DNA from: Verrucomicrobiia bacterium
GTDB taxonomy: Bacteria; Verrucomicrobiota; Verrucomicrobiia; Verrucomicrobiales; DEV007
Direction of reading: 5' to 3'
DNA: 64,000 bases
Assembly (NCBI GenBank): GCA_030427505.1
Contig: JAUICH010000020.1
Coordinates: 1-64,000 of the forward strand
The notes beneath the pieces were generated by a model that was given only the letters and a program-made list of their open reading frames with translations, was not told the origin of the DNA and did no database searches. Made by a program: the position numbers and the translations under genes. Position 1 is the stretch's first letter, and each line of letters starts with the position of its first letter. Shown here piece by piece: positions 193-11,454 of this stretch.

Positions 193-3000
193 GTGGTGCT
201 CGAGCAGGCGGTAACGGATTACGACCCGGCGGGCAATGTGATTTACGCGATTTCGTATCAACGCTTTCATGACGCCACTGGAAATGGTTCCCTAAATGGT
301 CCGAATGGGAGTCAACCCAAGGCGGTTCGAAGTTATCAACGAAGCTGGCACGACGGCATTAATCGCGTGGTGGCGGGCGCTAACTTTGGGACCAATGGGG
401 GGGCGGATCTGGAGAGACCCGACGTGGTGCCGGAGCGTAGCGATACGGTGCTGGTCAACAGCAATCGCTACAAGGGCGATGGGGAGGCCAATGCCTCGAT
501 TGATCCGATGGAGATCGAAACACGCTGGGAAGACGATCAGGCTAGGCGGCGAGTGCGGTTGATCGAGAACTATGACCAGGAAGCCGCGGAGGCTGACTAC
601 TCGGCGAACCGGACCACGGAATACGGATACGGGCCCGATGGCCAGTTAGAGCGTTTGACACTAATAAATAGCGTTACTGGCAACCAAGTCACCCGCTGGG
701 TCTATGGTACGACCCTAAGCGATAGCGGCGTGGCGCGGGCCGACCTGTTGCGGGCCAAGATTTACCCGATGAGCGACGATCTTGAAGATCCTCTGGGAGA
801 TGGGTTCGATGAGGAGTACGAGCGCATCGAGTATGAATACAATCGTCTCGGCGAGATAACGAAGATGAAGGACCCCAACGAGATCGTGCATGAATTTGAT
901 TGGGACAAACTGGGCCGAAGAACGCAGGACCGGGTTACTGCTTTTGGCAGTGGTGTGGATGACACCGTAAAGCGAATTGGCACAGCTTTTGATAATAAGC
1001 GCGGCTTGGTCGAAACGATTACCAGTCATGACAATGCAACCGTGGGCAGCGGGACGGCTCTGAATCAGGTAGGCTTCGCATACAATGACTTTGGTCAAGT
1101 GACAGCCGACCAGCAGGAGCACGACGGAACAGTGGATGGCTCGACGCCAGAGGTAGGCTATGGCTTCGCCGACGCCTCCAGTGGCAACACCATCCGGCAT
1201 ACCTCGATGACCTACCCCGATGGCCGGGTGATCGACTTCAGTTACGGGACGAGCGGCCAGGAAAATGATCTCTTAAGCCGGGTGGTGTCGCTCCAAGTCA
1301 ACGGGGAGGGAAGTCCCTTCGTCACTTACACTCGTGTGGGGCTTGCCCGCTATGTGGAAATCGGATATCCTCAGCCAGAGGTGGAACTCTCTTACCTTAA
1401 GGAAGGAAGCGAGCCGGTGGGTGACGCGGGAGATGCATATGTTGGATATGACCGGTTTGGAAGAACGGTGGATATGCGGTGGCAGACGAGCAGTGGCGGC
1501 GTGATGAAAGACCGGTTCCAGTATGGCTACAACCGGTCAAGTATGCGGACTTGGCGGATAAACTTGGTGGCTAGTACGGATCAAGACGAGCATTACAATT
1601 ACGATGGATTATACCAAATCACAAACTTTGAGCGGGGTAATCTGAATATTAACCGAACGGATATCGCCGCGATCCCCGTCCAAGAAGAGGATTTCAGATA
1701 TGATCCTTCCGGAAACTGGTACTCTTATGAGAAGCGAAGTGAAGGGTCAGTTGATCTCAGTCAAAGCCGTTCGAACAACCGCGACAATGAAATTACGCTA
1801 ATAGATGGCTCGAACCAAGGGATTGGATACGACAAGGCGGGAAATGCCACTCAATTACCTCCGGATAAAGACGGAGACTGGGAAAAGTTCTACAAATTGA
1901 AATGGGATGCCTGGAACCGTCTGATCGAAGTTCGGGATGACCACGACTCGCTTGTGGCCGCGTATGCGTACGACGGACGGTTTTACCAGATCACCAAGTC
2001 CGAAGGCGCGACCATGACTCACTACTACTATAATGACAAATGGAAATGCGTGGAAGAACGAAACGGCAGTTCTGCTGTGGGTATACAATACGTTTGGGGT
2101 GCTCGGTCGCAACATAGGGATGAATTGGTCTTCAGGGATCGAGATACTACTGGAGATGGAACATTTGATGAGCGTCTTTTCTGTATGATGGACTACTACA
2201 GCGCAACCTCAATTACCAATACGAGTGGTGATGTGCAGGAGCGCTACGGGTATAGTGCCTTTGGCGATAGAACCGTAATGAGTGCGGGCTTTGCCAATCG
2301 TTCGGCCTCTGCATTTGACTGGACATTCAGCTTTAAAGGGCAATTTCTGGATATTGAAACTGGGTATTATAACTACGGGTACCGCTATTATGGGGTAGAG
2401 TTGGGACGGTGGCTATCGCGAGATCCGATCTTCGAGAGAGATTCCAACAACTTATATATTTATACAATGAATAACTGTCCCAATGCCCTTGATCGTTTAG
2501 GTCTGGAGACTTGCAGTCAACCTAATAAGGCTAGGCTCAAATCTTTCGAACTAGTAACGGAACTCGGATCAGGGCGGAAGTTGAAGGCTAATGATCCCGC
2601 GCAATCCGTTTGGGGGTTCATTGGTGATTTGGCGAGTGCAAAGAAAGCAGAGAGACTCGCTGCTGGAAATGAAGTTTTGGAATGGTTTGAAAAGTTGGCA
2701 AAAACATCCTCAGGCTTTACCAAGCTTATTGGTTTCACTGCTGGAGAAGCGTTCCGCACGGATGGATTTCAAGTTGATGCAATCGAAATGGAGGTAAATT
2801 TTGATTGTTGTCGATGCGTGGATTCCCAAACTGGGCGCTATGAATGGGTTGAGCTTAAAGCATCCTATAGATGGGACGACTTTGGGACGATTCCTATTGG
2901 AAGTGATGACGCACTCAGGCTATTGCCAAGTTACTACTTTACCGTTATGGAGTATGCCGCCGAAGATCTTGTTTTACAATGTCCTGGTGGATTGGCCTAG
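193..3000 (+). CDS. RHS-repeat protein with variable C-terminal tip (5' truncated)
   Basis: Many YD-type repeats (for example YDPAGN, YDKAGNAT, YDGLYQ) run through most of the protein. The RHS-associated core follows at residues ~730-771, with RYYGVELGRWLSRDPI and a closing DRLGLE. The family encapsulates a C-terminal toxin or effector inside a shell. The tip after the core (~772-935) matches no toxin family I recognise; it has a CCRC cluster near residue 874 and is AT-richer than the repeats. The open frame extends upstream to 121 with RHS-like sequence but no usable start codon, and a TGA sits at 118-120. GTG at 193 is therefore only the first possible start, and the real 5' part is probably missing or out of frame. 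RHS identity is sure; the start and the toxin function are not. Confidence 0.85.
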   Translation: MVLEQAVTDYDPAGNVIYAISYQRFHDATGNGSLNGPNGSQPKAVRSYQRSWHDGINRVVAGANFGTNGGADLERPDVVPERSDTVLVNSNRYKGDGEANASIDPMEIETRWEDDQARRRVRLIENYDQEAAEADYSANRTTEYGYGPDGQLERLTLINSVTGNQVTRWVYGTTLSDSGVARADLLRAKIYPMSDDLEDPLGDGFDEEYERIEYEYNRLGEITKMKDPNEIVHEFDWDKLGRRTQDRVTAFGSGVDDTVKRIGTAFDNKRGLVETITSHDNATVGSGTALNQVGFAYNDFGQVTADQQEHDGTVDGSTPEVGYGFADASSGNTIRHTSMTYPDGRVIDFSYGTSGQENDLLSRVVSLQVNGEGSPFVTYTRVGLARYVEIGYPQPEVELSYLKEGSEPVGDAGDAYVGYDRFGRTVDMRWQTSSGGVMKDRFQYGYNRSSMRTWRINLVASTDQDEHYNYDGLYQITNFERGNLNINRTDIAAIPVQEEDFRYDPSGNWYSYEKRSEGSVDLSQSRSNNRDNEITLIDGSNQGIGYDKAGNATQLPPDKDGDWEKFYKLKWDAWNRLIEVRDDHDSLVAAYAYDGRFYQITKSEGATMTHYYYNDKWKCVEERNGSSAVGIQYVWGARSQHRDELVFRDRDTTGDGTFDERLFCMMDYYSATSITNTSGDVQERYGYSAFGDRTVMSAGFANRSASAFDWTFSFKGQFLDIETGYYNYGYRYYGVELGRWLSRDPIFERDSNNLYIYTMNNCPNALDRLGLETCSQPNKARLKSFELVTELGSGRKLKANDPAQSVWGFIGDLASAKKAERLAAGNEVLEWFEKLAKTSSGFTKLIGFTAGEAFRTDGFQVDAIEMEVNFDCCRCVDSQTGRYEWVELKASYRWDDFGTIPIGSDDALRLLPSYYFTVMEYAAEDLVLQCPGGLA

Positions 3001-3830: not shown

Positions 3831-6059
3831 CTATTCTGCGCGGGATGGACTTTTTCGCTCTGATATATCGAGATCGTGTAGGATTTCATTCAACCCAAGT
3901 CGAAACGTTTTCGCTGATTTGCTAAGAATCTTGAGAAAGTGAACGTATCTGGAATGGCACTCGAAGTTGTGAAAGTATTTCTGGGCTTCGCTCAACAAGT
4001 GGAATTGAAATCCATTTTCGATCAAGAAATCAGCCCACTGAGAGATCAACTCCACAAATCGAGTATCATCCGCTCCTCCCAGTTGCCCTAAAGTCAGCGA
4101 CGTCAAGGAGAAGGAAGAAGAACTGGCATCAGTACTGTCGAGCCGTGAAATGAATAGAGCCCTTGCCGCGGAGGGTGGCCGAGATCCGTTGATAATCTCC
4201 ATCAGTTCGCCGGCGAAATGGTTTTCCGGGTCTTCACTAAGTTGCTTGATCGTCTTGAGAACGTCCGCTGTCAGGACAGGCGAGACCAAGCAATATTTTC
4301 GGAACGAGTTGTTGAATGCGGTTGTTACTCTAATCAATTCTTGGGCTTCTTCTGGAGCGTCTCCGTTGTGGCGACTTTGAAACTCTCGAAAGTTCTGGGA
4401 GGTAATGCGGCGGTCATCCTCGTGGTAGAGGTGGACCGCTTTTAATGGCAGGAAATGCGGAGAGGCCACCCGAGAGAGACGCGCGGCAAAGTCCATGTCT
4501 TCCCAGCCCCAGCCTTCATAGGATTCGTCCATTCCCCCGGTGGAGGCGAAAGCGGATTTGCTGTAGATTACCGACCCGGGGCCGAAGAGGTCCATGATTT
4601 GATTCCGGCTCACCAGGAAAGTGTCCAGATTGCAAATGGCACGTTCGTCCTCCGTCAAGGTGACAAAGTTTCGGGTGTCTCTTTCTGACAGCCGGAGGAA
4701 GTATTGGTAGGGTTTGATGACCGGTATCGACTTCGAGTGATAGATCGAAAGGTGGCGCAGAACCGCGGCAGGGCTGACGTAAATGTCCGCATCCAATTGC
4801 CAAACGTAGCGAGCGCCTAGGTTTTCAAATGCATGACAAGAGCCCCGATTGATGAGCGTAGTTTTCTTGATGAGGTCCGTTTCAAATGAAAAGCTCAGAA
4901 GGTGGGTATCGGCAAAATGCGAGGATATAAGTGCAGAAACAACGTCGTCTTGCTCCGGAACCAGCTGCTGAACCACAAGAACCTGGCAGTCAAACTGTGA
5001 CAGAACAGAGAGGAGGAAACGGAAGTTGCGGAACCGTAACGAATCGGCGGAACGCAGAAGAACAGGAATCAGGACCGCTACTGGCCCTTTATCGGGTTCG
5101 TGCCCGAAAGCATGAGCCGGCGCTAGAGACATTGGTGGCCGATAGTCTTTTAATTGACTTGCCTTGGAGCCATTGGCACCATTTGAACTTGAGCTACGGA
5201 CGGTTGGGGCCGAGGTGTTGGAAGGTGACGGATATCTGCCTAAAAGGCGCTCGACTGAATCCCGAAACTGTCTCCCGTAATACTTTCCGACCGTCGTAGC
5301 GTCCCGCTCATCGAGATAGGGCTTCGCTTTTCCCGCGAAGTGCAGGATTTTTGGAGGGGCAGACCGGCTGGTTAGTTTTTCCGGCGGCGTATTCCATTCG
5401 TCTGGTAACTGGCCCCAGTCCTGGTAGCAGGCGATGTTGAGCCCATACTGGTCAAAACAGGGAGGGTTACGGTCTCTTTGGCGATGGTACTCAAGTGTGG
5501 CCTCAATCGCCCTCCGGGGAATTTCCCGTTCCCGCCACCCCTGGGGTTGGATTAGGAGGACGCCGGAGTTGAAGTAGGGAGCACTGAGGTCGATCTCTGG
5601 AAGTTCAAATCCTCCCAGGCCCTCCTTGAGCGTGAGAATGAAGTCCTGGGCTGCGGTAACGGAACTCTCCGGGTCCGCGAGCGCATAGAGGTCCGCCACA
5701 TCGGCCATTACAAAAAGGTCTGAATCCAAGTAGAGTACCGGATCATTCCCCGGATAAATGGCGGGAATGAGCAGCCGGTCGTAGTGGCCGGAATTCCGCA
5801 GAAACTGAAAAGTGACGGGAATTTCACCGTATGTGAGATAGAGATCGAGGTTCGGTTTCAGAAATTCCAGGGAAAAACCACAATCTGAAGCGTGACATTC
5901 CAGCGCGTGCCGCGCATGATCAGAAAGACCCCGATCCATGATGGTGAAGCTGAGAGACTGGGGATTCCGGGAGGATTCCACGGTGGTCGCAACAGTGCCG
6001 AGCAACAGTTCTTCAAAGTTTCGATTTGCTGAACAAAAAATGGGGATCGTAGGTTCCAT
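3831..6059 (-). CDS. Bifunctional glycosyltransferase: GT8 domain plus second GT-A domain
   Basis: The product is 742 aa. Residues 1-275 look like a GT8 retaining transferase: YLDSDLF (DxD at D112/D114), FNSGVLLI (163-170), DQYGLN, and HFAGKAKPY (240-248), the HxxGxxKP metal and substrate motif. A Ser/Asn-rich linker spans 276-325. Residues 326-~560 form a second GT-A domain of GT2/GT7-C type, with QLDAD (421-425) and GWGWEDMDF (516-524). About 180 residues at the C-terminus are unassigned. The protein is probably cytoplasmic and adds two sugars to a glycan or a protein. It is divergent from the sulfotransferase fusion gene with only 42 nt between starts, which suggests joint expression. Acceptor and sugars are unknown. 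Confidence 0.85.
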   Translation of the reverse strand: MEPTIPIFCSANRNFEELLLGTVATTVESSRNPQSLSFTIMDRGLSDHARHALECHASDCGFSLEFLKPNLDLYLTYGEIPVTFQFLRNSGHYDRLLIPAIYPGNDPVLYLDSDLFVMADVADLYALADPESSVTAAQDFILTLKEGLGGFELPEIDLSAPYFNSGVLLIQPQGWREREIPRRAIEATLEYHRQRDRNPPCFDQYGLNIACYQDWGQLPDEWNTPPEKLTSRSAPPKILHFAGKAKPYLDERDATTVGKYYGRQFRDSVERLLGRYPSPSNTSAPTVRSSSSNGANGSKASQLKDYRPPMSLAPAHAFGHEPDKGPVAVLIPVLLRSADSLRFRNFRFLLSVLSQFDCQVLVVQQLVPEQDDVVSALISSHFADTHLLSFSFETDLIKKTTLINRGSCHAFENLGARYVWQLDADIYVSPAAVLRHLSIYHSKSIPVIKPYQYFLRLSERDTRNFVTLTEDERAICNLDTFLVSRNQIMDLFGPGSVIYSKSAFASTGGMDESYEGWGWEDMDFAARLSRVASPHFLPLKAVHLYHEDDRRITSQNFREFQSRHNGDAPEEAQELIRVTTAFNNSFRKYCLVSPVLTADVLKTIKQLSEDPENHFAGELMEIINGSRPPSAARALFISRLDSTDASSSSFSLTSLTLGQLGGADDTRFVELISQWADFLIENGFQFHLLSEAQKYFHNFECHSRYVHFLKILSKSAKTFRLGLNEILHDLDISERKSPSRAE

Positions 6060-6101: not shown

Positions 6102-8981
6102 ATGAAGCAGAGAAGTCACGTCGTAATCTCCGGAACGGGCCGGGCTGGGACTTCCTTTTTGATGCTTCTCCTCACCAGACTGGGTCTCGATACGGGCTTT
6201 AAGAAAAACAAGGAAATCAGTCTGGCCTGCAGGGCGGGACTGGAGAAAGACATCCGTGAGCCGGACGCCCCGCACATCGTCAAATCACCGGCTTTTTGTC
6301 ACTATGTGGGCGAAGTTCTGGCCCGCGCGGATATCCGCCTGGAGAGGGTCATTGTCCCGATACGAGATTTGAAAGCCGCCGCGGAGAGCCGGAGGCAAGT
6401 GACACAAGAAGCTCTGAGTAGGGGACGAAGACTGGAAGATGGAATCCCTGGCGGATTGTGGCGGGTAGAAAAAGGAGAGGATCAAGAGCAGGTTCTGCTA
6501 GAAGCTCTCTACAAGCTCTTGTTTCACCTGTCCAAAAGTAACGTGCCCATAACTTTGCTGCATTACCCGAGGCTCGTTTCCGATTCTCGCTACCTGTATG
6601 GAAAGCTTCGCCCAATCCTGGGAAGTATAACCTACCAGGCTTTTACGGAAGTCTTTGAGAGTGTCCTTCGGCCGGATTGGACGCATCAGTTCACACCAAA
6701 CGATCGGTGGGCGGCGGAAGACCGGCGCATTTCCACGGATCATGCCACGCCAGCCAGGAATGGAAGCAGGGATCTCAAAATAGAGGTTCTCAAGAACGAT
6801 GCCCCCCAGACGAAAGATCACGACTTCAAGGGCACGATCCCGCTAGTCTTTTTGACGCGATTCAACCTAGTGTTGCCTTTTCTTGAGGAACAGGGAGATG
6901 CGCCGCCCCCTGCATACTTTGACGAATGGCTTCACCATCGGACAGAGCTCTTTGAAGAATTCTGCCTGCCTTCGCTAAGAAAGCAGACCGACCAACGATT
7001 CTATTTGGCTCTTTTGCTCGACGAACACCGGACTCCAGATTGGCTAATGCGGAAGGTAAGGGAATGGGCGCTCTGGGAACCGCTTTTCCCATGCACGGTA
7101 AATGTGCCATTTTCCACAGACCTGCCCCCGCTATTCACTCGCAAGCTGCTTGAGGCTGCGGGGCATTGGCCTGTCAGGTATGTCGCGACGGGCTGGCTGG
7201 ATAGCGACGATGTGATTAGTCCTCGCTACGTCGAAAAAATGCGGCGGCATTTTCCGCGGGACGAGGAAGCTCTGTTGTGTTTTCCGGGAGGTTACCGCAC
7301 ATCGATCGAGACCCTGAGAGAGGGGCTTAGCAACTCGAAAAGTGGGGGTTTAGAAGTGACGGGCAAAAATGTCGCCGTCATCGATTGGCCCAAGCGGACA
7401 ACTGCCATGGTCAGGGTGGAAAAGGTTTCCGGGAATGGCCGATTTGGATCGGTCTTTGAAAAACCGCATCATCTCTGGGTAGACTTCAAAAGGGTCGAGG
7501 ACATTTGTCCTAGTGAAAGGCATTTCGTAAAGCTCGTTCATCCAGATGCCGTGATTAACATTCCGGAGCGCTGGTTTGGCCGGGGCGAAGGCGAACCCTT
7601 TAGAGCTTGGCGCAACCGCACCGAACTCATTGAGTGGCTGATTAGTCGATTTGGCTTCCAGAGCTACCTTGAGATCGGAATCGGAAATGGAAAGAACTTT
7701 GAGAACGTACCGGCTCGGAAGAAGGTAGGAGTTGATCCGAAAGCCTGCGAGATCGAAGGAGTGCTCCAGACCTCGTCTGATTCATTCTTCGAACAGAACC
7801 GGAACGGTTTTGACCTCATCTTTGTGGATGGGCTTCACGAGCGAGATCAGTTTTACAGGGATTGTGAAAACGCTTTGGCAGTTGTAAACGAAGGAGGTTT
7901 GGTTCTATGCCACGATATCAATCCTCGCAACGAAGTAGAACAACGGGTGCCCCGGGAATCGGGTGCCTGGACGGGGGACTGCTGGAAGGCCTGGGTAGAG
8001 CTCAGAAAGAGGCCGGATGTCGAGATGTTTGCAATCGATCTTGAAACGGGAATGGGTGTGATTCGTAGGGGACGGCAGATTTCGTTTCGTGTGCCCGGAG
8101 AGCTAAGTTGGCAACATTTGAAAACGAACAAACGCAAGTGGTTGAACCTGCAAAATCATCATGACGCGAAACGGCGTTTGACTCAATGGGCCCGAGACCA
8201 TGGAAACAAGAGCACAAGGACCGCCATTTCTAGAGTCTTCATTGCCGGCTTTCAGAAGTGCGCAACGACCGCAGTCTTTCGATGCCTCGAGGATCATCCG
8301 GATGTGGTCATTCCTCAGAAGACCGGGGACCGGTGGGCGCCTTTTCTTCCCAAGGAAACAGAGTTCTTTTCAAAGAATTTTGGGCGTGGACTTGCTTGGT
8401 ATGAATCTTTGTTTGTGGGAAAAGGATCGGTCACGCTCGAAGCGACACCGACCTATATCGCAAGCAGGGAAATTCTACAACGTATCGCCGAGTGGGCGCC
8501 AGACGCTAAGTTTGTCCTCATGTTGAGAGACCCCGTCGAACGGGCATTTAGCGCCTGGAATCAATGGAATCAGTTGGAAGACAAAGGAGTCTGGCGGATG
8601 CCTGTGCCTGATGGATCGTTTAGCGATAACATCCAGCGAGAGTTTGAGAAAAACCTGTCAGCCGGACCATATTTTGGTTTATTGAAGCACGGGCTTTACG
8701 TGAACCAGATCCGGCAACTTTTTTCTCTATTCGACCCGTCACAAGTTTTCATTGGGTTTAAGGAAGAACTGGATAAAAAGCCGGAGACGGTAACGTCTGA
8801 TATTCAGGAGTTTCTCGGACTGAGGCCGGTTCGTCTAAAGCTTCGACTCGCCAATCATATTCCCTATGTGGTTGGGAAGATGCCGGACAATGTCCAGAAA
8901 TGGTTGACCCGTTTCTATCGCGACAGCGTTCTTGAATTGAAGGAGCTTTTGGGCAGAGAACTGCCTTGGTCACGGTGGTAG
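6102..8981 (+). CDS. Multi-domain sulfotransferase / rhamnosyltransferase-like / methyltransferase fusion
   Basis: The product is 959 aa with four visible parts. (1) Residues 1-~225 begin with a P-loop of the sulfotransferase type, GTGRAGTSF (11-19). (2) Residues ~242-505 resemble bacterial putative rhamnosyltransferases, with FLTRFNL near the start and WLDSDD (366-370) as the DxD-like site. (3) Residues ~512-660 form a class I SAM methyltransferase: YLEIGIGNG (522-530), then FDLIFVDGLHE and LCHDIN. (4) Residues ~710-959 form a PAPS-dependent sulfotransferase with the 5'-phosphosulfate loop GFQKCATT (716-723) and 3'-phosphate motif RDPVERAFS (809-817). Known activities of these families suggest glycosylation, O-methylation and O-sulfation of one glycan by one polypeptide. 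Domain 1 may be a kinase or an inactive sulfotransferase. Confidence 0.85.
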   Translation: MKQRSHVVISGTGRAGTSFLMLLLTRLGLDTGFKKNKEISLACRAGLEKDIREPDAPHIVKSPAFCHYVGEVLARADIRLERVIVPIRDLKAAAESRRQVTQEALSRGRRLEDGIPGGLWRVEKGEDQEQVLLEALYKLLFHLSKSNVPITLLHYPRLVSDSRYLYGKLRPILGSITYQAFTEVFESVLRPDWTHQFTPNDRWAAEDRRISTDHATPARNGSRDLKIEVLKNDAPQTKDHDFKGTIPLVFLTRFNLVLPFLEEQGDAPPPAYFDEWLHHRTELFEEFCLPSLRKQTDQRFYLALLLDEHRTPDWLMRKVREWALWEPLFPCTVNVPFSTDLPPLFTRKLLEAAGHWPVRYVATGWLDSDDVISPRYVEKMRRHFPRDEEALLCFPGGYRTSIETLREGLSNSKSGGLEVTGKNVAVIDWPKRTTAMVRVEKVSGNGRFGSVFEKPHHLWVDFKRVEDICPSERHFVKLVHPDAVINIPERWFGRGEGEPFRAWRNRTELIEWLISRFGFQSYLEIGIGNGKNFENVPARKKVGVDPKACEIEGVLQTSSDSFFEQNRNGFDLIFVDGLHERDQFYRDCENALAVVNEGGLVLCHDINPRNEVEQRVPRESGAWTGDCWKAWVELRKRPDVEMFAIDLETGMGVIRRGRQISFRVPGELSWQHLKTNKRKWLNLQNHHDAKRRLTQWARDHGNKSTRTAISRVFIAGFQKCATTAVFRCLEDHPDVVIPQKTGDRWAPFLPKETEFFSKNFGRGLAWYESLFVGKGSVTLEATPTYIASREILQRIAEWAPDAKFVLMLRDPVERAFSAWNQWNQLEDKGVWRMPVPDGSFSDNIQREFEKNLSAGPYFGLLKHGLYVNQIRQLFSLFDPSQVFIGFKEELDKKPETVTSDIQEFLGLRPVRLKLRLANHIPYVVGKMPDNVQKWLTRFYRDSVLELKELLGRELPWSRW

Positions 8982-9005: not shown

Positions 9006-9422
9006 TCAAGGCGCGTTCCTAAAGAGTCGGCGCAGGGCTCTTCTACGCGAAGCAGAGATCCCCTTGGATGCTTTTCCTTCTTTCGATGGTGGACCATTGC
9101 GGCCTTTTCGCCCCGCTGACGATGGTGTGATCCGCCTCTTTAAGATAGCTTCGATCCAAACATTTCCGCCCTCATTCTTCCGAGCTGAGGCTACTTTCTT
9201 ATCCGCCTTGAGTTTGACACAAGCTGCGGCACCGTTATAGCGGCCAGCTTCGCCCAAAATGCGTTCCACTTCCGAGACTGGAATCATCACCCGGCCATAC
9301 TGGGTGATGGCTTGAACTTTGCCGGCATAGAGTTGGCGGTAACCCCAGGTTTGGGACTTTCCAAACAGGGCGGCGAATTCACCGGGGGTGAGGGCGACTT
9401 TGTTTGGCATGGGTTCGTTCAT
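9006..9422 (-). CDS. Excisionase-like HTH DNA-binding protein
   Basis: The product is 138 aa. Residues ~10-60 fit a MerR/excisionase-type helix-turn-helix (HTH_17-like): LTPGEFAALFGKS, YRQLYAGKVQAI, and GRVMIPVSEVERIL, where a helix follows the wing. The C-terminal half is very basic and disordered-looking (KGRNGPPSKEGKASKG, RRRALRRLF), which suggests DNA or RNA contact. The start lies 9 nt after the stop of the restored ParE frame, so it is the third gene of the antitoxin-toxin transcript. It could be a recombination directionality factor for the nearby integrase or a co-regulator of the toxin-antitoxin pair. Confidence 0.7.
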   Translation of the reverse strand: MNEPMPNKVALTPGEFAALFGKSQTWGYRQLYAGKVQAITQYGRVMIPVSEVERILGEAGRYNGAAACVKLKADKKVASARKNEGGNVWIEAILKRRITPSSAGRKGRNGPPSKEGKASKGISASRRRALRRLFRNAP

Positions 9423-9431
9423 GGCTGCGGT

Positions 9432-9756
9432 TCAGTTTTCTTCATGCAGATAGCGTCTGGCGCCGTGCCGAACTTGGAGGACATGCACAGTGCCGTTCAC
9501 AATATGAAAAAGAATGCGGTATTTCGAGGGGTAATCCTGAAAAAGCAATTGCCGTAGTTCTTCGGGTCCCCATTTGCCAATTTTCTGGAGCCAGAGGACA
9601 CCGGCTGGGCAATTCGGTCAGGCTTTCAATCGTTTCGAGAATGGTGTCGATCCATTCGAGGGCTTTCTCGGATGAAGCCCTTTCCGCAATCCAACTGGCG
9701 GAGCTTTCGATGTCTTCGCGGGCGGTGGGATGAATGCGGATTTGGAATGCTGCCAT
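9432..9756 (-). pseudogene. ParE/RelE-family toxin, frameshifted
   Basis: The N-terminal part (to about 9570) reads as a ParE-type plasmid-stabilisation toxin: IRIHPTAREDIESSASWI and LTELPSRCPLAPENW. After the Trp the frame runs into non-homologous residues. The next frame carries the expected ParE C-terminus, EELRQLLFQDYPSKYRILF then VHVLQVRHGARRYL, ending at TGA 9432-9434. The joined region is 325 nt, one base more than a whole number of codons, so one inserted base (or two deleted) near 9558-9576 explains it. That stretch contains short GGG and CCCC runs, so a sequencing error is possible. Intact, it would poison gyrase or mRNA, depending on subtype. Confidence 0.8.
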
Positions 9757-10117: not shown

Positions 10118-11224
10118 TTACGAGAAGGAAACCTTCTTTGCCTGGGAAAGGCTATGCTCGTTCCGGAGATGTCCGTAAACCTTCATCGCCAAGGCGCCGC
10201 CGTCTTTATGCCCCAGCCACTTGGAAACCGTGGGAATGTCCACTCCGGATTCAATGCAGGTGGTGGCAAAAAGATGGCGGAGGTCGTGATGCGTAATGGC
10301 GGCCATTCCGACAAGATCGGCGGCGCGCTCCATGGCGTCCTTGGCCGTGTTTACTTCACAGACATAGTCGTCAGGTTGTAGATTCCGCCCTCGGCGTCGC
10401 ATGGATTCTAGAAGCTTTTCAAGCGGTTCGATTATCGGCACTCGCCGCGAAGTGCGGTTTTTGGTTCCGGTTTCCGGGTCGCCTTCCACAACCAGTTCTC
10501 CGCGCTCGAAGTCGCAGTGCTTCCATTTTACGTGCCGTGCTTCACCTTTGCGGAGGCCCGTGTAGGCGAGAAACTCCACGAAGTCAGCGCAGGCTTCCCC
10601 CCACCGGCTCGGGGATTTACGGATTTCGGTCACCCAGTCGTGAAACTGTTGCCTCGTGGGCAGCCGGGCAGTGAGGTCTTTCTGGGACGGCTTGAGGCGT
10701 TTGAGTTTGGAGGCCGGATTGGAGTGGCGGATGCCGTGATCAACCGCGATGGCGAATACGTGTTTGAAACCGGTGATCGTATTGTTGAAGCGGGTCGCCG
10801 AGAATTTCATGGATAGGCTCCGCGCCCACCGCTCGCACTCATGGGCTTTAACCGATCTGGCCAGCCGGCCGGAAAGCCCCGGCCAGCTTCGCAGCAAAGC
10901 TTCGAATATCTCGTGCCAATACTTCTTGGTTCTGGGCTTTAGGGAGGTGTCGTTGTCGATCCGGGAAAGCCTGATCGTGATCAACTGCCCAACGGTGACA
11001 GAAGGGGAGAGGGGGTCGGAGTCTTCGAGCACTTCTTCGGCGGCACGGGCTGCCTTGAGGTGCTCTTCCGCCAGTGATTTGGCAATCTCCAGAACCCGCG
11101 TGCGGAGGCTTCGCCACGACAGCTTGCTTCCGGAAGAGATGCGGACATAATAAACGCCCGACTGATGCCGGTAGATGTTCCGGTATCGCGTGGATTGCCA
11201 GGTCTTCGATTGAGTGCGGCTCAT
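10118..11224 (-). CDS. Tyrosine recombinase / integrase
   Basis: The product is 368 aa. It has an N-terminal SAM-like core-binding domain (~75-180) and a C-terminal catalytic domain. The active-site set is complete: R225 in TGLRKGE, K255, H313 and R316 in HHDLRH, H339 in WLGHK, and nucleophile Y350 in KVYGHL. Enzymes of this family catalyse site-specific integration or excision of islands and phages. It is the first gene of a minus-strand block with the toxin-antitoxin and HTH genes, and its 5' end faces tRNA-Leu 108 bp away. No other phage functions are seen, so this is a remnant or a very small element. Confidence 0.93.
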   Translation of the reverse strand: MSRTQSKTWQSTRYRNIYRHQSGVYYVRISSGSKLSWRSLRTRVLEIAKSLAEEHLKAARAAEEVLEDSDPLSPSVTVGQLITIRLSRIDNDTSLKPRTKKYWHEIFEALLRSWPGLSGRLARSVKAHECERWARSLSMKFSATRFNNTITGFKHVFAIAVDHGIRHSNPASKLKRLKPSQKDLTARLPTRQQFHDWVTEIRKSPSRWGEACADFVEFLAYTGLRKGEARHVKWKHCDFERGELVVEGDPETGTKNRTSRRVPIIEPLEKLLESMRRRGRNLQPDDYVCEVNTAKDAMERAADLVGMAAITHHDLRHLFATTCIESGVDIPTVSKWLGHKDGGALAMKVYGHLRNEHSLSQAKKVSFS

Positions 11225-11332: not shown

Positions 11333-11417
11333 GCCGGCGTGGCGGAATGGTAGACGCAACGGACTTAAAATCCGTTGGAGGGCAACCTCCGTGCGGGTTC
11401 GAGTCCCGCCGCCGGTA
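11333..11417 (+). tRNA. tRNA-Leu (anticodon UAA)
   Basis: The 85-nt cloverleaf has acceptor arm GCCGGCG/CGCCGGT (with a G-U first pair), D-arm GTGGCGGAATGGTAGACGC, and anticodon stem ACGGA/TCCGT with loop CTTAAAA, giving anticodon TAA at 11366-11368. A long class-II variable arm (GGAGGGCAACCTCC) and the T-loop GGGTTCGAGTCCC follow. The discriminator base is A, as for leucine tRNAs. CCA is not encoded. Confidence 0.96.
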
Positions 11418-11454
11418 CTTCTTGAGACCGCCGAGAAAGCGATGGTAACGGTTT

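Follow-up and report, generated by a model that had tools for sequence, protein, structure and literature searches.

A single polypeptide of 959 amino acids, encoded at positions 6102-8981 (+) of the window (the whole stretch of 64,000 nucleotides analyzed here), joins four enzyme-like domains in an order that our searches of genomes, viral contigs, phages, and plasmids did not turn up elsewhere. From the N-terminus, these are a divergent sulfotransferase-fold domain, a glycosyltransferase, a methyltransferase, and a second, dissimilar sulfotransferase (Table 1). We consider it probable, although far from certain, that the protein is a soluble four-domain tailoring enzyme on an acquired island, acting on a lipid-linked or surface glycan together with a GT8-GT2 partner. 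The gene is a single open reading frame with an ATG start and 959 codons, and its frame is free of stops, which has a composition-based chance of about 1e-20; the five remaining frames hold 19 to 43 stops each. The preliminary description had named the four kinds of domain, in this order, from short signatures that start at residues 11 (GTGRAGTSF), 365 (WLDSDD), 522 (YLEIGIGNG), 716 (GFQKCATT), and 809 (RDPVERAFS). Pfam searches, alignments of homologues, and the predicted fold of domain 1 confirm this layout. The protein lacks a long hydrophobic stretch (the best 19-residue mean is 1.33) and is most likely a soluble enzyme.

Table 1. Positions in the window of the four domains and of the features around them.
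Feature	Positions	Strand	Evidence	Remark
Domain 1, divergent PAPS-type sulfotransferase by predicted fold (aa 1-215)	6102..6746	+	Homologue alignment, AF2 model, structural matches	
Domain 2, PF11316-family glycosyltransferase with LDSDD acidic motif (aa 246-500)	6837..7601	+	Pfam, conserved columns, low-confidence model	
Domain 3, predicted Methyltransf_24 subfamily (aa 505-690)	7614..8171	+	Pfam, homologues	
Domain 4, predicted heparan-sulfate-type sulfotransferase (aa 705-959)	8214..8978	+	Pfam, PDB relatives, alignment	
Divergent partner, GT8 (aa 7-250) and GT2/Glyco_transf_7C-type domain (aa 357-565)	3831..6059	-	Pfam	
RHS-type gene	193-3000			Contig starts 192 bases before
Phage-type tyrosine integrase	10118..11224	-	PF00589, 75.6 bits	
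tRNA-Leu(taa)	11333..11418	+	ARAGORN	Beside integrase

The C-terminal domain matches two sulfotransferase families over residues 711-908, Sulfotransfer_1 (PF00685, 48.1 bits for a cut-off of 22) and Sulfotransfer_3 (PF13469, 43.1 bits for a cut-off of 27). Its full set of motifs (GFQKCATT, KETEFF, EATPTY, RDPVERAFS, and HGLY) aligns with those of its homologues and includes both the 5'-PSB loop, GFQKCATT, and the 3'-PB motif RDP..RA.S, here RDPVERAFS. The nearest solved sequence relatives are 3rnl, deposited as 'sulfotransferase', and the heparan sulfate 3-O-sulfotransferases (E 1.5e-13 for 3A1 and 1e-9 for isoform 1). The latter and the sulfotransferase domain of NDST (PDB 1t8t, 1vkj, 1nst), also one of the closest solved sequences, differ from our protein in being animal enzymes without a fused glycosyltransferase or methyltransferase. 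By family and motifs, domain 4 is thus predicted to be a PAPS-dependent sulfotransferase of the heparan sulfate type.

Domain 1 gave no match when its sequence was compared with Pfam (E 0.01), PDB sequences, and PHROGs. As a lone sequence it also gave zero matches in the viral contigs, where an alignment-based search was required to reveal relatives, in 12 contigs. Other homologues occur in five other Verrucomicrobiota genomes (40-46% identity) and in one Phyllobacterium plasmid, and the relatives are mostly stand-alone proteins of about 200 aa. The domain carries the motifs GTGRAGTSF, VKSP (aa 60), and RDLKAAAESR (aa 88). In an alignment of 16 rows, 15 columns are invariant, including R14, E48, K61, R88, and S96, and the residues of the P-loop and 3'-phosphate motif (G11-T12-G13-R14, G16, T17, K61, R88, and S96) are the same in 16/16 sequences. 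The AF2 model of the domain (pLDDT 86, pTM 0.81) retrieved sulfotransferases as all 50 of the 50 best solved structures with VIA-align (Z 11.4 to 9.2), with TPST1 and the curacin sulfotransferase on top (Z 11.4). Sulfotransferases were also the top matches with Foldseek, at modest E-values (best 2.3e-3). Glycopeptide sulfotransferases (Teg12, Teg14, and StaL) and sulfotransferase domains of polyketide pathways are among the structures matched. The likeness to TPST1/2 (PDB 5wri, 3ap3) spans 171 residues at 3.1 A, whereas identity is 14% and domain 1 is shorter. A profile alignment of domains 1 and 4 paired both motifs with an E-value of 2e-4, yet with a probability of 47%. The P-loop has an arginine in place of the usual lysine in a domain that is short (about 200 aa), but this does not represent decay, because the arginine is invariant across the entire family. 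On the strength of the modelled fold, domain 1 can be taken as a PAPS-type sulfotransferase from a conserved family overlooked by Pfam. Structure prediction gave no other fold, and the earlier reading of the N-terminal segment as a sulfotransferase was therefore right at this level.

The relatives of domain 1 in Verrucomicrobiota sit in cellular clusters of the LPS type, with WaaE-like glycosyltransferases, an O-antigen-ligase-like gene, and RmlC (neighbor labels read from sequence), and elsewhere a rhamnan synthesis F gene adjoins a domain-1 relative. Two relatives (L060:7337-8416 and L061:7838-8914) are fused to a C-terminal segment, which in L060 carries EF-hand repeats, an odd partner for a sulfotransferase-fold protein.

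Domain 3 matches Methyltransf_24 over residues 556-606 (38.0 bits for a cut-off of 26.3). Its homologues are 40-51% identical and their alignment has about 50 invariant columns; the window copy keeps the invariant residues of its subfamily. Its motifs comprise YLEIG (the invariant SAM motif I), VDGLH, CHD, and GDCWKAW, and by these features it appears to belong to a distinct Methyltransf_24 subfamily with GDCWKAW as a hallmark. We examined the best 80 of 220 relatives in genome contigs and the best 80 of 417 viral stretches that encode them, such that rarer copies may have been missed in both sets. Among the bacterial loci examined, most came from SAR11 genomes (L067-L142, mostly Pelagibacterales). 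In bacteria as well as in phages, fusions of this methyltransferase family to glycosyltransferases are frequent: we found it joined to GT2, GT4, GT17, RgpF, or TPR proteins, for instance to GT2 in a viral contig (L037), to GT17 and GT2 (L193), to GT4 (L106), to an FkbM methyltransferase (L183), and to RgpF and GT2 (L042). In the tree of domain 3, viral and bacterial rows are intermixed. We considered a viral origin for the domain and did not retain it, as the tree leaves the window copy on a long, unplaced branch and does not put it within a supported viral group. Separately, several phage proteins annotated as 'DNA methyltransferase' or 'DNA methylase' (phrog_27561, phrog_2675, and proteins of the Cellulophaga phages phi12:1, phi17:1, and phi18:1) match the glycan-type Methyltransf_24, and their DNA label may be wrong; the Cellulophaga phage proteins are weak relatives of domain 3.

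The match of domain 2 to Rhamno_transf (PF11316) exceeds the family threshold (58.4 bits for a cut-off of 23, aa 272-384) and covers only positions 31-139 of the 235 in the profile. The RFN and LD.DD columns are invariant among homologues. Four weak relatives of the domain occur in viral contigs. The structural model has a pLDDT of 50 overall. Its first 160 or so residues match GT2/GT-A structures and its C-terminal half is poorly modelled and divergent, for which reason the domain could be an inactive glycosyltransferase. Rhamnose, implied earlier by the label rhamnosyltransferase-like, found no support as the transferred sugar: the genome (96.5% complete) has no PF00908 match for RmlC, while a control search was positive in 11/14 genomes, and PF11316 is only a family label. 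Because the genome lacks RmlC, the name 'rhamnosyl' is doubtful and should not be read literally.

All four domains have homologues encoded by separate genes. The full-length 959-aa query matched phages, plasmids, viral contigs, and relatives through single domains only. Domain 1 is present in 1/387 genomes of the order, the one studied here, and in 6/384 genomes of the class, this one included. Among the relatives found, none has a second of the four domains in its polypeptide. The statement that no described enzyme has this domain order agrees with the literature searched, where we found no paper describing such a four-domain fusion. In another genome (G030), a GT8 gene adjoins a relative of domain 4, beside a sugar transferase of the exopolysaccharide type. 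The divergently transcribed neighbor in the window, previously described as a two-domain GT8 protein, indeed combines GT8 with a GT2/GT7C-type domain according to Pfam.

Several features suggest that the gene is carried on a horizontally acquired island, namely the low GC of the first 12.5 kb, the GC3 figures, the integrase, and the tRNA-Leu. GC climbs from about 0.53 to about 0.60 right of the tRNA-Leu. GC3 is 0.60, 0.59, 0.56, and 0.55 in domains 1 to 4 and 0.58 in the GT8-GT2 gene; the RHS gene has a GC3 equal to that of the four domains, and eight genes further along the contig range from 0.72 to 0.79. The integrase probably belongs to the island that carries the glycan genes, and the tRNA-Leu is a possible integration site. 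No convincing direct repeats were found to mark the island ends among 26 short families, and the left end may be missing, as base 1 of the window is also the first base of the contig. The typed neighbors encode RHS, HTH, ParE, integrase, and sulfatase proteins, and two further neighbors have no match. The HTH_17 (excisionase-like) and ParE-like toxin genes (9006-9756) lie between the 959-aa gene and the integrase, consistent with an island, while the sulfatase (PF00884, 12681-15155) is just past the tRNA-Leu, outside the low-GC stretch. The RHS-type gene is near the glycan genes, and in the same order another such gene (L039:14261-18001) lies near a 955-aa methyltransferase fusion of the genome G211, a coincidence that may be due to chance.

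An assembly or binning artefact would also account for a fusion seen in one genome only, near a place where the assembly breaks, since only 192 bases of the contig precede the RHS gene. We regard this as extremely unlikely. The 959 codons run without a stop across three in-frame junctions, and GC3 is homogeneous over the four domains, equal to that of the GT8-GT2 and RHS genes and distinct from that of genes further along the contig. Because codon composition is uniform over the junctions, the gene is unlikely to be a chimera drawn from several sources. The preliminary description had raised the possibility of separate genes joined in this genome alone through an assembly error. The first part of this scenario stands, as the homologues are separate genes and the searches gave no other four-domain protein, whereas the error itself is unlikely.

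Starting from the families of the four domains, their conserved nucleotide-binding motifs, and the capacity of the genome for PAPS synthesis, we propose the following scheme. The GT-A domain would take one sugar from a nucleotide donor and add it to a growing glycan that is probably lipid-linked and to which the divergent GT8-GT2 protein would supply neighboring sugars. The Methyltransf_24 domain would O-methylate the glycan with SAM, and the two dissimilar PAPS-dependent sulfotransferases would sulfate two different positions or residues. PAPS can be made, because the genome has an APS kinase, as the sulfation suggested earlier would require. The activity of each domain, a common acceptor, and a product at the cell surface are all presumed in this scheme. 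The acceptor glycan itself is a guess, since we identified neither a polymerase nor a flippase nor an ABC exporter in the vicinity of the gene. The assembly line suggested earlier, in the strict sense of a fixed sequence of reactions, gains no support from these observations.

Relatives of domains 1 and 3 also occur in phage head-gene blocks. In three viral contigs (L228/L229/L233:4286-5531), the gene for a domain-3 relative overlaps the neighboring gene for a domain-1 relative, and in L228, for which the context was read, they lie between a capsid-region gene and a portal gene. In another contig (L223:5001-5594), a domain-1 relative is between the portal and the head protease. Methyltransf_24 and sulfotransferase-fold genes in such blocks hint at a sugar or sulfate decoration of virions. 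The functions predicted for the 959-aa protein have a comparable set in separate genes of a further viral contig (L224:1694-9631), with two GT4, a GT2-like gene, a domain-1 relative, and a weak methyltransferase match, followed by two sulfotransferases, RmlC, and a nucleotide-sugar dehydratase. This run constitutes a viral sugar-sulfation island with three sulfotransferase-type genes, including the domain-1 relative. A broader interpretation, which we advance tentatively and hold to be doubtful as it stands, is that one polypeptide performs two different sulfations together with glycosyl transfer and O-methylation on one glycan, and that the modules of which it was assembled move between surface-glycan clusters of bacteria and head-gene modules of phages.

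These loci raise the alternative that the target is something other than a bacterial surface glycan, for instance that the protein originated in, or works for, a decoration module of the phage type, which would place methylated and sulfated sugars on virion proteins or alter host receptors. The abundance of domain-3 relatives in viral stretches and the integrase and low GC around the gene would fit as well. Nevertheless, this seems unlikely, as virion genes are lacking among the typed neighbors, the Verrucomicrobiota relatives of domain 1 are in cellular LPS-type clusters, and the tree does not put the window copy of domain 3 within a supported viral group. It is also rather unlikely that at least one of the four domains is a non-catalytic binding or scaffolding module, in which case there would be fewer than four reactions. 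The degenerate C-terminal half of domain 2 and the P-loop arginine and short length of domain 1 point in this direction, but that arginine is invariant throughout the family, the motif set of domain 4 is complete, and domain 3 keeps its invariant residues. The tailoring of a small molecule, such as a glycolipid or secondary metabolite, instead of a polysaccharide is very unlikely: the fold of domain 1 does match that of glycopeptide and polyketide-pathway sulfotransferases, but the best characterized relatives of domain 4 act on heparan sulfate and biosynthetic core genes are absent among the typed neighbors.

Sulfated bacterial polysaccharides are poorly understood. If the broader interpretation given above holds, the protein would be the first enzyme described to link two PAPS-dependent sulfations with glycosyl transfer and methyl transfer in a single chain. 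The presence of these domains in one protein predicts which modifications occur on one glycan. The occurrence of the domain-1 family in both bacteria and phage head-gene blocks also raises the question of whether phages sulfate and methylate sugars on their virions.

Multi-domain enzymes for methylation and glycosyl transfer are already known, as are clusters with sulfotransferases, methyltransferases, and glycosyltransferases in separate genes. WsaE of Geobacillus stearothermophilus is a trifunctional methylrhamnan enzyme with one methyltransferase and two glycosyltransferases, encoded in an S-layer cluster with an ABC exporter (PMC2943079). Like the protein proposed here, it is a single soluble polypeptide with O-methyltransferase and glycosyltransferase activity on one surface glycan, whereas the 959-aa protein has one glycosyltransferase, one methyltransferase, and two sulfotransferases and is not surrounded by an exporter-bearing surface-glycan cluster. 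ORF6 of Klebsiella pneumoniae O7 joins a bifunctional methyltransferase-kinase terminator to two glycosyltransferase modules (PMC11231755). It is also a multi-module O-polysaccharide protein in which methylation is joined to glycosyl transfer, but it lacks the sulfotransferases present in our protein. The wps-1 cluster of Actinoplanes missouriensis, of the Wzx/Wzy type, encodes a pair of sulfotransferases from different families together with a methyltransferase and glycosyltransferases, which are predicted to make a sulfated polysaccharide, yet on separate genes (WpsB, WpsH, WpsF, and WpsA) and not in one polypeptide (PMC13390465). Finally, in the same phylum as the genome studied here, a cluster of Pontiella sulfatireligans has the same kinds of predicted enzymes for a sulfated exopolymer (a sulfotransferase, a methyltransferase, and glycosyltransferases), again encoded by separate genes where the window has a single one (PMC7356697).
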